A stretch of DNA of 64,000 bases, taken from the NCBI RefSeq assembly GCF_001713455.1, contig NZ_CP016464.1:309501-373500 (forward strand), written 5' to 3'. Below the pieces are notes generated by a model that saw only the letters and a list, made by a program, of their open reading frames with translations, had not been told where the DNA came from and did not search any database. Within the stretch, counting starts at the first letter, position 1. Every line of letters begins with the position of its first letter. Position numbers and translations under genes: made by a program. The DNA comes from Bosea sp. RAC05 (GTDB lineage: Bacteria > Pseudomonadota > Alphaproteobacteria > Rhizobiales > Beijerinckiaceae). Below, piece after piece: positions 8,849 through 18,831 of this stretch.

Positions 8849-9736
8849 TCAATCCTTCAGGCGGCGGCAGAGCGCGTCGAGCTGTTCCAGCGTCTTGTAG
8901 CTGATCTTGACCTCGCCGCTGCCAGTGGCGCGGTGGCTGATCGAGACGGACAGGCCGAGCGCCTCCTCCAGCGCCCTTTCGACCGCCCGCGTATCGGGGT
9001 CCTTCTCGACCCTGGGCTTGCTCGAGATGCTCTTGGTCTCGCCCCGCGACTCCTCCTGGACGATGCGCTCGATGTCGCGCACGCTCAGGCCCTCGTCGAC
9101 GATCTTGCGCGCCATCAGTTCCGGGTCCGAAACGGAAAGCAGCGCACGGGCATGGCCGGCCGACACGGCGCCGTCGCTGACCATCTGCCGGACGGACGGC
9201 GGCAGCTTCGACAGTCGCAGCGTGTTGGCGACATGGCTGCGGCTCTTGCCGATCACCCGCGCCAGATCGGCCTGCGTGTAGTTGAACTCGGCGATCAGCT
9301 GCTCATAGCCCGCCGCTTCCTCGATCGCGTTGAGATCGGTGCGCTGCACGTTCTCGACGATGGCGATTTCGAGCGCCTCGCGATCATCGGCCTCGACGAG
9401 GATGACAGGGACATCGTGCAGCCCGGCCCGCTGGGCCGCGCGCCAGCGACGCTCGCCGGCGATGATCTCATAGGCATCAAGCATGCCGACGATTGCCCGC
9501 ACGATGATCGGCTGCAGGATGCCGCGCTCACGCACGGACGCCGTCAGCTCCTCGAGATCCTCCTCCGCGAAGCTGCGGCGCGGATTGCGCGCGCTCGGCC
9601 GCAGGAACTCGACCGGAACGCGACGCTGGCCGCGAGCCCGCTCCAGCGCGCCGATCTCCTCGCCGACATCGCCGATCAGCGCTGCCAGACCCCGGCCCAG
9701 GCGCGAGCGCCCCTGTTCTTCGGCCATCGCCATCAT
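8849..9736 (-). CDS. parB: Chromosome-partitioning protein ParB
   Basis: A 295-residue ParB. The N-terminal ParA-activating peptide (RSRLGRGLAALIGD) precedes the ParB/sulfiredoxin CTP-binding domain (NPRRSF, GILQPIIVR, GERRWRAAQ, ENVQRTDLN), a helix-turn-helix that reads parS (TQADLARVIGKSRSHVANTLRL) and a C-terminal dimerisation domain. CTP-dependent ParB clamps load at parS and spread. Three adjacent possible starts exist (9736, 9733, 9727); AGAGG sits just upstream of the first two. It is 19 bp downstream of parA. A perfect parS lies 1.4 kb upstream, in rsmG. Confidence 0.96.
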   Translation of the reverse strand: MMAMAEEQGRSRLGRGLAALIGDVGEEIGALERARGQRRVPVEFLRPSARNPRRSFAEEDLEELTASVRERGILQPIIVRAIVGMLDAYEIIAGERRWRAAQRAGLHDVPVILVEADDREALEIAIVENVQRTDLNAIEEAAGYEQLIAEFNYTQADLARVIGKSRSHVANTLRLSKLPPSVRQMVSDGAVSAGHARALLSVSDPELMARKIVDEGLSVRDIERIVQEESRGETKSISSKPRVEKDPDTRAVERALEEALGLSVSISHRATGSGEVKISYKTLEQLDALCRRLKD

Positions 9737-9755: not shown

Positions 9756-10582
<827 letters not shown>

Positions 10583-10586
<4 letters not shown>

Positions 10587-11230
10587 GGATCGGCCCGTTT
10601 CTCGGCTGCGCGGACCATCAGGATCCGGGCGGCCCCATCCGTCACGGAGGAAACCGTTGAGGCCTGAATCTTCCAATATCTGGACGACTCCGTCAATTCC
10701 GCATCTAGATGTTGTCCCTTCGGAAACAGTCCGAGGGTGCCTGTTCTCAACAGCTCTTTGCACCAGTCGAGCAGCTGCGGCAGTGGCGCCAGCGCCCGGG
10801 CCGTCACCACGTCGACGCGCCCGGTGAAATCCCCGATGACGTCCTCGATCCGAGCCGGATGAACAGTGACCGGCGCCCCAGTTAGGCGCGCGGCATGCCG
10901 CAGAAAGGCGCATTTGCGGCTGTTGCTCTCGACCAGATGGATGCGCCCGCCCTCGACTTCGGCGAGGCAGATTCCGATCACCAGGCCCGGGAAGCCCCCA
11001 CCGGAGCCGAGATCGAGCCAGGTTCGGGCATCGGGCGCGAGCCGGAACAGCTGGAGGGAATCGGCGATATGCCGCAGCCAGACGTCGGCGAGGGTCGTGT
11101 TGGACACGAGATTCTTGGCCGCCTGCCAGCGCGCGAGTTCCGCCACCAGCAGCGAGAGCCGCTCCTCTGTTTCACGTGAAACAGGCGTCAAGCGCAAAGC
11201 GCGGGCACGGTCGGAATTATCAACAGTCAT
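10583..11230 (-). CDS. rsmG: 16S rRNA (guanine-527-N7) methyltransferase
   Basis: A 215-residue SAM-dependent methyltransferase (GidB). Motif I is LDLGSGGGFPGLVI; downstream are HLVESNSRKCAFLR and VTARALAPLPQLL. It methylates G527 in the 530 loop of 16S rRNA. The ATG at 11230 begins MTVDNSDRARAL; the frame remains open to 11293 but that stretch overlaps the mnmG end. A perfect 16-bp parS (11168-11183) is embedded in the coding sequence and encodes Val-Ser-Arg-Glu-Thr, so selection acts on both protein and ParB binding. Confidence 0.95.
11168..11183. promoter_or_regulatory. parS, perfect 16-bp ParB-binding site inside rsmG
   Basis: The palindrome TGTTTCACGTGAAACA is an exact match to the conserved bacterial parS consensus. 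It lies inside the rsmG coding region, 47 bp from its start, and about 6.6 kb from the candidate oriC and 1.4 kb from parB. Confidence 0.95.
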
Positions 11231-16503: not shown

Positions 16504-17544
16504 TCAGCCCCGGACCGCAGCCAGCAGCCGCTCGACATGCGCGATTGGCGTATCCGGCAGGATGCCGTGCCCGAGATTGAAGACGAAGGGCCCTTTGCCG
16601 AAGGCCGCCATCACAGCCGCAATCTCGCGCTCCAGCTCCGGACCACCGGCCCGCAGAACCAGCGGATCGAGATTGCCCTGGACCGGCACGAGCGATTGGA
16701 TTTTGTCGCGGGCGAAACCACGATCGATTTCGGATTCGAGGCCGACGGCATCGACGCCCGTCCCGCGGACATAGGCCGGAATCAAGCGCCCCGCCCCACG
16801 CGGGAAGCCGATGATCCTCGCCTTAGGCTGCCGGGCCCGCACGCCCTCGACGATTCGCCGCGTCGGCGCGATGCACCAGCGCTCGAAATCGGCCTCGCCC
16901 AGCGAACCCGCCCAGCTGTCGAAGATCTGCACGGCATCGACCCCGGCCTCGATCTGCGCGTTGAGATAATCGATCGAGGTGTCGACGATCCGGTCGATCA
17001 TCAGCCGGAACAGCGCTTCGTCGCGGGTGAAGAGGTCCTTGGCTGGCCCCTGGTCAGGCGTGCCGCGGCCCGCGACCATATAGGTCGCCACCGTCCAGGG
17101 CGCACCACAGAACCCGATGAAGGCTGTTTCCTTCGGCAGCGAAGCGCGGACGCGACGCACCGTCTCGATGACGGGATCGAGCACGGAAAGCCCGGCTTGC
17201 CTGTCGATCTCGGCAAGCCTTTCCCGATCGGCAACCGGCTCGAGACGGGGACCTTCGCCCTCGACGAACCAGAGCTTTTGGCCGAGCGCCTGCGGCACGA
17301 CGAGAATGTCTGAGAACAGGATCGCGGCATCGAATCCGAAACGCCGGATCGGCTGCAGCGTGACCTCGGCAGCCCATTCGGGATTGTAGCAGAGGCCAAG
17401 GAAGCTGCCGGCCTTGGCGCGGAGCTCACGGTACTCCGGCAGATAGCGCCCCGCCTGGCGCATCATCCAGATTGGCGGTGTCGGCAGGGCCTCGCCGGAA
17501 AGGGCCCGCAGGAACGCAGGCTGGTCAGGTGTCGTGAGGCTCAT
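16504..17544 (-). CDS. hemE: Uroporphyrinogen decarboxylase
   Basis: A 346-residue single-domain TIM barrel that converts uroporphyrinogen III to coproporphyrinogen III. The N-terminal signature [20 protein letters not shown] holds the substrate-binding arginines; [16 protein letters not shown] and the C-terminal [12 protein letters not shown] are also conserved. The ATG at 17544 is used; an in-frame ATG at 17562 with AGAGAG upstream is an alternative. It is the first leftward gene from the candidate oriC, the position it occupies next to the Caulobacter origin. Confidence 0.95.
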
Positions 17545-17637
17545 CGGCGATCCATCCCCCATCTCTCTTAAATAGATTTCTAGAGAGAGAATCTTCTTTT
17601 TTGACTCTTGGATGGGGGCAGATAGCCCGACGCAATC

Positions 17638-17657
17638 CGATCCACAACCTGTCCACA
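17638..17657 (+). promoter_or_regulatory. Two DnaA-box-like sites in oriC
   Basis: CGATCCACA (17638-17646) and CTGTCCACA (17649-17657) each match 7 of 9 positions of TTATCCACA, in the same orientation and 11 bp apart. They lie just right of the AT-rich stretch. Individually weak; the clustering and position raise the odds. Confidence 0.5.
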
Positions 17658-17704
17658 GGTGTCCAGCCTGAGGCAGGCGAGGCGCGCTGTCCACCCGGCC
17701 AGCG

Positions 17705-17720
17705 TTAACGGTTTGTTAAC
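17705..17720. promoter_or_regulatory. CtrA-type binding site TTAA-N7-TTAA in oriC
   Basis: TTAACGGTTTGTTAAC contains TTAA, exactly seven bases, and TTAA, the full CtrA consensus. In Caulobacter CtrA bound to such sites at the origin represses initiation. The site is 36 bp from the oriC parS-like palindrome. Confidence 0.75.
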
Positions 17721-17756
17721 CCGTGCGAATCGCGACCGCCCATCGGCGCGGCAAAA

Positions 17757-17772
17757 TGATTCACGTGAAACA
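17757..17772. promoter_or_regulatory. parS-like ParB site in oriC (15/16)
   Basis: TGATTCACGTGAAACA matches parS at all but the third base. The inner ten bases, TTCACGTGAA, are intact. Together with the perfect parS at 11168 it places ParB sites on and beside the origin. Confidence 0.85.
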
Positions 17773-17802
17773 CGTCAGCCTCTCCCCACAGCCTCTGGCC
17801 TG

Positions 17803-17817
17803 TTAACGGATCATTAG
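17803..17817. promoter_or_regulatory. Second, weaker CtrA-like site in oriC
   Basis: TTAACGGATCATTAG reads TTAA-N7-TTAG, one base off the consensus. It is 98 bp from the perfect site. Confidence 0.4.
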
Positions 17818-17858
17818 GGTTATACAGACCTTAACGCCGCCGCCCTCCGGAGACGGTT

Positions 17859-17867
17859 TTGTCCACA
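17859..17867 (+). promoter_or_regulatory. DnaA-box-like site in oriC (8/9)
   Basis: TTGTCCACA differs from TTATCCACA only at the third base. It is the best DnaA-box match in the window's intergenic DNA. Confidence 0.55.
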
Positions 17868-18000
17868 GCGCTCCCCAGGCAACCCGCAACGGCCGGCGCC
17901 CTGGCCCGGCTCACCGTCGAAGCGCCCAGAGCCGGCCGATTTGCTTTGGCGGCCTGCCGGGCTAGAGGTTGCTGACCGCGCCATCGCCCCGGGGAGCCCC

Positions 18001-18831
18001 GTGCACCGCAATTACTTTCACCTCCACCTGGTGTCGGACGCGACCGGCGAAACCCTGATCGCCGTCAGCCGCGCCGCTGCAGCGCAGTACGAAACGGTGT
18101 CCGCGATCGAGCATGTCTATCCGCTCGTCCGTTCGGAGGCGCAGCTCGCCCGCGTCCTGGCGGAGATCGAGGCCTCCCCCGGCGTCGTGCTCTACACGCT
18201 GGTCGAGCCGGAATGGTCGCAGCGGCTGGAGAATTTCTGCCGGGAACTGGGCTGCCCCTGCCTGTCGGTGCTCAACCCGGTGCTCGCGCTCTTCCAGTCC
18301 TATCTCGGCCAGGCCTCGGCCCCGAAGCCCGGCGCGCAGCATGTGCTGAACGCTGAGTACTTCCGCCGCATCGACGCGATGAACTACACGCTGCTGCACG
18401 ACGACGGCCAGCTCGGCGGCGATCTCGAGTCGGCCGACATCATCCTCGTCGGCATCAGCCGGACCTCGAAGACGCCGACCTCGATCTACCTCGCCAATCG
18501 CGGCATCAAGACTGCCAACATCCCGCTGGTGCCGAACGTGCCGTTGCCGGCCGAACTCGAGCACGTCCGCAAGCCGCTCATCGTCGGCCTCGTCGCCAGC
18601 CCCGACCGTATCGTCCAGATCCGCCAGAACCGGCTTCTCTCGCTGCGGGCCGATGACGAGACGCCCTATGTCGACCCGGCCTCGGTGGCCGACGAGGTCG
18701 CCCAGTCGCGCCGGCTCTGTGCCCGCAAGGGCTGGCCGGTGATCGATGTGACACGCCGCTCGATCGAGGAGACGGCTGCCTCGATCCTCGATCTGCTGCG
18801 CGACCACCGCATGAAGTTCATCGCGACATGA
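18001..18831 (+). CDS. ppsR: Pyruvate, phosphate/water dikinase regulatory protein (DUF299)
   Basis: A 276-residue bifunctional kinase/pyrophosphorylase that switches PEP synthase or pyruvate phosphate dikinase off and on by ADP-dependent phosphorylation. N-terminal [13 protein letters not shown] and the P-loop-like [18 protein letters not shown] are signatures. The GTG at 18001 is chosen because homology begins HRNYFHLHL and GGGGAG precedes it; the upstream open frame runs into the origin region. Whether the target is PpsA or PpdK cannot be told here. First rightward gene from oriC; it overlaps maf by 4 bp. Confidence 0.92.

Follow-up and report, generated by a model that had tools for sequence, protein, structure and literature searches.

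The 64-kb stretch of DNA from Bosea sp. RAC05 analysed here (hereafter the window; C2:309501-373500) belongs to C2, the 4,911,382-bp replicon of a 5.62-Mb genome of two contigs, and contains a 456-bp intergenic gap between hemE and a gene of the DUF299/kinase-pyrophosphorylase family (COG1806). Gene direction flips at this gap, the main open frames from parB through hemE lying on the minus strand and DUF299 and the following frames on the plus strand. An earlier note on this DNA had proposed, from the two flanking genes, the switch in gene direction, DnaA-box-like sites, a TTAA-N7-TTAA site, a parS-like site and an AT-rich stretch, that the gap is the origin of replication (oriC) of the main chromosome. 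Pfam matches of the flanking genes, the strands of the open frames, and motif and AT scans of the gap bear out each of these features (Table 1). The gap coordinates are exact provided that hemE starts at the ATG at 17544 (minus strand) and DUF299 at the GTG at 18001 (plus strand). The same boundary, hemE-COG1806, delimits the origins of Caulobacter and Rickettsia, for which in-silico criteria have been described, and known alphaproteobacterial origins sit at hemE (PMC1914354).

Table 1. Positions of the predicted origin, its sites and the associated genes (numbering of the 64-kb window)
Feature	Position	Strand	Details
Intergenic gap, predicted oriC of the 4.91-Mb replicon	17545..18000		456 bp; boundary genes, unmatched site sum, nearby strand change points
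AT-rich stretch with two GANTC sites (17589, 17603)	17561..17611		most AT-rich 40-mers of the window; conserved block 17588-17611
DnaA-box-like pair CGATCCACA (17638) / CTGTCCACA (17649)	17638..17657	+	each two mismatches to TTATNCACA
CtrA-type site TTAACGGTTTGTTAA	17705..17719		exact TTAA-N7-TTAA
parS TGATTCACGTGAAACA with embedded GATTC (GANTC) at 17758-17762	17757..17772		one mismatch, 15/16 bases of TGTTTCACGTGAAACA
DnaA box (predicted) TTGTCCACA	17859..17867	+	one mismatch to TTWTNCACA; conserved
hemE, uroporphyrinogen decarboxylase, left boundary	16504..17544	-	Pfam URO-D PF01208, E 2e-112
DUF299 / kinase-pyrophosphorylase (COG1806), right boundary	18001..18831	+	Pfam Kinase-PPPase PF03618, E 2e-91
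Perfect parS TGTTTCACGTGAAACA in 5' end of rsmG/gidB	11168..11183 (C2:320,668)		GidB domain; 6.6 kb from gap parS
parB	8849..9736	-	Pfam HTH_ParB, ParB_N, ParB_C
parA (open frame coordinates)	9756..10715	-	Pfam AAA_31, CbiA

The AT content of the gap is 38%, higher than the 31% of the window (an AT content above that of the genome is among the features looked for in such origins), and the 40-mers highest in AT across the 64 kb (72.5% AT) all lie inside 17561-17609, within a stretch that is likely to be the unwinding element. Two DnaA sites of the gap lie within one mismatch of TTRTCCACA and are accompanied by a conserved TCCACAACC..TCCACAG core, and the motif scan also detected TTATACAGA at 17820 as DnaA-like (one mismatch to TTWTNCACA). 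Apart from the single exact CtrA-type site, there are two further CtrA-like sites with one mismatch each, at 17803 and 17820. GANTC sites number four, compared with about 0.8 expected from the window rate.

Such a combination is rare in this genome. Our comparison sample comprised 1,353,500 bases of the same genome (24%), that is, 110,222 other 456-bp windows, which average 0.03 DnaA-like and 0.011 CtrA-like sites, whereas the gap has 2 and 3. The sum of both kinds of site found in the gap was reached by none of these windows, although a rival cluster elsewhere is possible in principle since only 24% of the genome was sampled. Three CtrA-like sites occur in no other sampled window. Single features are less striking: two DnaA-like sites are found in 41 other windows and five GANTC sites, the count of the gap in this comparison, in 147, and its AT content is matched by 2,350. 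Only one place in the whole genome combines a full CtrA site with a parS core 20-50 bp after it.

Strand composition also changes close to the gap, whose centre is at C2:327,274. A contiguous stretch of 1,011,382 bp, running from C2 4.70 Mb across 0 to 0.80 Mb, has its GC-skew change point at C2:338,619, 11 kb from the gap centre (bootstrap 2.5-97.5%: 0.18-0.49 Mb), with a strength equalled by 1 of 500 block permutations, and the strand change point of GGGNAGGG falls at C2:336,825, 9.5 kb from the gap centre, with none of 500 permutations as strong. The proportion of GGGNAGGG on the plus strand is 26% before this change point and 61% after it (n=166), and positions within 2 log-likelihood units of the best fit span a wide interval that begins at 4.85 Mb, crosses 0 and ends at 0.42 Mb. 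The cumulative GC minimum of a smaller contiguous stretch of 253.5 kb lies at C2:337,438. When 20-kb stretches spaced about 100 kb were sampled, the best GC steps placed the terminus at 3.02-3.10 Mb and the origin at 0.32 Mb at least (equal fits listed to 0.36 Mb, the next stretch used being at 0.5 Mb).

The region is matched in all 61 genomes drawn from the genus, and the gap could be cut from 60 of them, the contig of the remaining one ending there. Among the 24 closest loci (a genus group that overlaps the 61-genome set, the two never being summed), DUF299 is 87-99% identical. Conservation was counted over all 60 rows and spacing over the 54 parS-bearing rows only; a first alignment had taken only 54 rows chosen by the parS string, which made parS invariant there by construction. 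The mean reference-base frequency over the 60 rows is 0.54, and the 99.5-99.8th conservation percentiles are held by the AT/GANTC block 17588-17611 (99.8), the DnaA box at 17859 (99.8) and parS, with the CtrA site (90th) and the two upstream DnaA-like sites (77th and 89th) at lower percentiles. The parS string is identical in 54 of the 60 gaps and the CtrA pattern at 17705-17719 is intact in 53; GANTC is kept at 17589 in 58 and at 17603 in 48, TCCAC at 17641-17645 is present in 55 and TT[AG]TCCACA at 17859 in 45. Only nine rows fit N[TC][AG]TCCACA at 17649, where the consensus core is TCCACA. Some candidates were rejected as not conserved, namely the extra CtrA-like sites at 17803 (3/60) and 17820 (reference string in 1/60), and TGTCCACC near 17687 (17th percentile). 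No other form of parS was found in the 60 gaps (30 rows searched with up to two mismatches and 30 with up to three). DUF299 identity in the six rows without parS is 74-77%, compared with at least 87.6% in the other 24 rows listed, and the genomes concerned are 3.2-3.9 Mb in size; they look like one divergent group.

The arrangement of parS relative to the DnaA-type site on its 3' side is the most rigid part of this layout. With TT[AGT]TC[CT][AC]CA as the pattern for that site, the last DnaA-type site is 101-103 bp away from parS in 54/54 rows, and exactly 102 bp in 47 of them, across a spacer whose mean ungapped identity to the reference is 44% (n=52, the two nearest rows left out). This fixed distance, a product of comparison between genomes, is the strongest sign that parS may be part of the working layout of the origin. 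DUF299, by contrast, lies anywhere between 204 and 669 bp from parS. The CtrA site lies 50-53 bp from parS in 40 rows and 62-63 bp in 11 (three rows have no exact CtrA site), two classes that differ by about one helical turn, and the distance from TCCACAACC to parS is 114-117 bp in 34 rows and 126-127 bp in 11. Because both distances shift alike, the longer class may represent one inherited insertion.

At two mismatches or fewer, three parS-like places were found in the 5.62 Mb, all within 73 kb (C2:254,359, 320,668 and, in the gap, 327,257). Two of these have at most one mismatch, which by simple arithmetic gives a given 456-bp stretch a chance of about 2 in 10,000 of containing such a site. 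The third and weaker one, TGATTCACGTGAAACC (C2:254359-254374, two mismatches, 73 kb from the gap), also contains GATTC, and none of nine tested genes was detected on its 3-kb locus. At up to two mismatches, no parS-like match was found on the second replicon, C1 (708,738 bp), which is thus probably partitioned by another system. The parAB genes are 8 kb from the gap, and a match to TGTTTCACGTGAAACA is found near the predicted origin together with parAB. The genome also encodes a CtrA orthologue, 85% identical to Caulobacter CtrA, and a CcrM-like methyltransferase (a 399-aa frame with a DPPY motif seen by eye), whose RAMA family has matches here and, among 14 control genomes, only in Caulobacter. 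The one dnaA copy found lies at C2:438 kb, at a distance of 111 kb from the gap.

Considering the boundary genes, the site sum, the nearby change points and the placement of parS, the gap is very probably the DnaA-dependent oriC of the Bosea main chromosome, an origin of the hemE-COG1806 type known from Caulobacter, in agreement with what the earlier note had concluded. In such an origin, DnaA would bind both the pair of boxes at 17638-17657 and the single box at 17859, melting the AT-rich stretch, and phosphorylated CtrA at 17705-17719 would restrain initiation. ParB would load at the parS of the origin and at the perfect rsmG parS 6.6 kb off, and loading inside the origin would make the first DNA copied also the first captured for segregation, as we propose here. 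The GANTC sites, one of them within parS, would become hemimethylated after departure of the fork and be refilled by CcrM. We infer each of these binding events, and its effect, from the sites and genes described above. The origin type itself is already known, and placing oriC is useful mainly for annotation; what is new relative to the known type is a conserved, rigidly spaced parS inside oriC, whose fixed distance to a DnaA site could, as far as sequence comparison indicates, couple DNA copying to segregation.

Several observations weigh against this assignment or against the part given to parS in it. The gap contains no exact TTATNCACA box, and the IHF consensus WATCAN5WTR, found in 2/60 genus gaps, has no match in it; with this one listed site missing, our claim is for a Caulobacter-type origin without it rather than for an identical layout. 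There is one conserved CtrA site, whereas Caulobacter has five (PMC1914354). The earlier note had suggested looking for a minimum of the cumulative GC skew in the gap, and this expectation held only in part: the two change points are close by, with wide intervals, but there is no clean minimum there. The raw cumulative GC curve of the 1.01 Mb does not reach its lowest point at the gap; it falls steeply to about 0.33 Mb, then flattens and drifts slowly downward to the end of the stretch. The sampled stretches by themselves locate the origin loosely: the 10-90% bootstrap range of the GC step runs from -0.16 to 0.75 Mb, and GGGNAGGG fits best at 4.89 Mb, positions at 0.32-0.35 Mb coming within 2 log-likelihood units of that fit. 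As regards parS, its distance from hemE is fairly rigid too (208-233 bp), implying that rigidity is not limited to the DnaA-parS interval, and a reversed parS control pattern also matched one place genome-wide, so the two-mismatch site at C2:254,359 may be due to chance. Finally, the gap parS deviates at position 3 (a single T-to-A change), and in Hyphomonas a double change at parS positions 3-4 abolished ParB binding (PMC6650430).

Comparison with known systems helps to separate what is shared from what is particular to Bosea. Cori of Caulobacter crescentus has the same boundaries (hemE and COG1806/CC0001), DnaA-type sites, CtrA sites of the TTAA-N7-TTAA form and an AT-rich stretch, and differs in having five CtrA sites, five DnaA boxes and an IHF site, the consensus of which the Bosea gap lacks (PMC1914354). 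Caulobacter parS lies about 8 kb from Cori, whereas the Bosea parS is inside the gap; DnaA also binds at Caulobacter parS (PMC6399470, PMC4468827). The Rickettsia prowazekii origin (hemE-COG1806) and the in-silico origins of Wolbachia and Ehrlichia follow the same boundary logic and criteria, with DnaA, CtrA and IHF sites reported and, in the portion of that report available, no parS described in the origin (PMC1914354). In Hyphomonas neptunium, parAB is likewise close to hemE (about 7 kb) and two parS are present, but both are described as lying upstream of the parAB operon, outside the origin gap (PMC6650430). A ParB site within an origin region is also known from chromosome II of Vibrio cholerae, in which parS2-B (in rctA) is built into the oriCII region, and a ParB site of this type keeps a similar position in several species despite poorly conserved surroundings (PMC3141006). 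That system differs in its unrelated initiator RctB, its different parS and its bacterial class, and the effect of ParB on replication has been shown there by experiment (PMC3141006). Among the literature matches listed, which cover few subscription papers and thus give no proof of absence, there is no report of a chromosomal parS inside an alphaproteobacterial oriC. With regard to methylation, GANTC sites near megaplasmid repABC and parS have been discussed (PMC9040568), and GANTC methylation at the Caulobacter parS locus has been measured and was unaltered by constitutive methylases (PMC5172544).

We also examined hemE-DUF299 gaps beyond the genus group, 47 of which were cut from 56 DUF299 loci (nine without a hemE match were left out). 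A parS with two mismatches or fewer is present in six of the 47. Three of these are Chelatococcus/Pseudochelatococcus loci, in which parS is nearer DUF299 and in opposite orientation (two TGTTTCACGTGAATCC, one TGTTTCACGTGAATCA); these parS contain GANTC, and they possibly reflect an independent placement of parS in oriC. The other three are metagenome-derived loci with a perfect parS, positioned as in Bosea and containing no GANTC. The parS variant tallies were counted by hand from match listings. Among the 150 matches listed in the order (397 genomes searched, 173 matched), position 3 is A in 139, C in 10 and G in one, and TGATTC is the commonest single-mismatch variant (21/44 such sites, among 75 sites listed for 111 genomes). 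Outside the order, 1/89 same-class and 3/263 other phylum genomes matched, with one A and three C.

That oriC lies elsewhere, for example beside dnaA, with the gap serving merely as a regulatory region of hemE and DUF299, would agree with the 111 kb between dnaA and the gap, with a skew interval that extends to 0.49 Mb and with a polarity interval reaching back to 4.85 Mb. However, the best 456-bp window around dnaA sums to two sites only, so that the equivalent DnaA-box cluster beside dnaA that the earlier note had named as a possible refutation was not found in the 24% of the genome scanned, and the hemE gap, where known alphaproteobacterial origins also lie (PMC1914354), is favoured by both best change points and by the pair of parS sites. 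We therefore judge an origin beside dnaA unlikely, as no comparable site cluster exists there, and consider any origin away from the gap extremely improbable. As for parS, it may simply derive from the second parS that genomes of this order usually carry, as a copy that was relocated and then kept only for its proximity to the origin, its place in the gap and its overlap with GANTC being accidental. A pair of parS per genome is frequent in the order, the two sites often being about 2 kb from one another, and of 26 loci outside the genus that hold a TGVTTC parS, 11 are by rsmG/parA, four by mnmE/mnmG, five by rho and none by hemE or DUF299, the remaining six being by none of the nine genes tested; the frequency of TGATTC among the matches listed is in line with such a copy. 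A fixed DnaA spacing across a poorly conserved spacer would be unexpected if position were irrelevant, and we regard relocation as close to evenly balanced, with the scales tipping slightly against it.

If the gap is oriC and its parS chiefly regulatory, ParB beside the CtrA and DnaA sites would gate initiation, comparable to ParB2 at parS2-B of V. cholerae chromosome II (PMC3141006). The constant distance to the DnaA box in 54/54 rows and the two CtrA-parS classes about one helical turn apart suggest such a role, for which the V. cholerae site and the binding of DnaA at Caulobacter parS (PMC6399470) are precedents. Yet the spacing may be kept for other reasons, such as an unseen element between the sites, the longer CtrA-parS class may go back to a single insertion passed on within one lineage, and the six genomes of the same GTDB genus without a gap parS presumably initiate normally; we hold this role to be possible, and put it forward tentatively. 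It is distinctly doubtful that the A at position 3 of parS was selected to create a CcrM site (GANTC) and thereby a methylation-timed switch of ParB loading. GATTC is present in all 54 parS-bearing gaps (rows defined by the string, with no other parS form in the 60), a CcrM-like gene is present, and in the matches listed for the order this position is A far more often than C or G. However, TGATTC is widespread in the order, and either ParB preference or ancestry may account at least equally well for the overlap of parS with GANTC; three gaps outside the genus hold a perfect parS without GANTC. The near absence of the variant outside the order further weakens GANTC selection as its cause. In the fullest form of the proposal, a centromere would be built into the Bosea origin: ParB clamps at a parS that keeps a constant 102 bp to the DnaA box and is separated from the CtrA site by about 5 or 6 helical turns would act directly on initiation and be timed by CcrM methylation of the GANTC in parS. 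We think this unlikely; if true, some 160 bp would integrate replication, segregation and cell-cycle methylation. Crosstalk between replication and segregation in bacteria is an open question (PMC6399470), and the Bosea parS in oriC offers a compact natural test case for their coupling.

Further observations concern other parts of the genome. Around dnaA (C2:436500-440500), up to six GANTC sites occur in one 456-bp window, compared with 0.6 expected from the sampled genome, and this cluster may indicate methylation control of dnaA. No dif site was found in the whole genome with an E. coli-like XerCD consensus at up to three mismatches. The polarity of GGGNAGGG flips near C2 3.0-3.1 Mb, which is likely to be the terminus.
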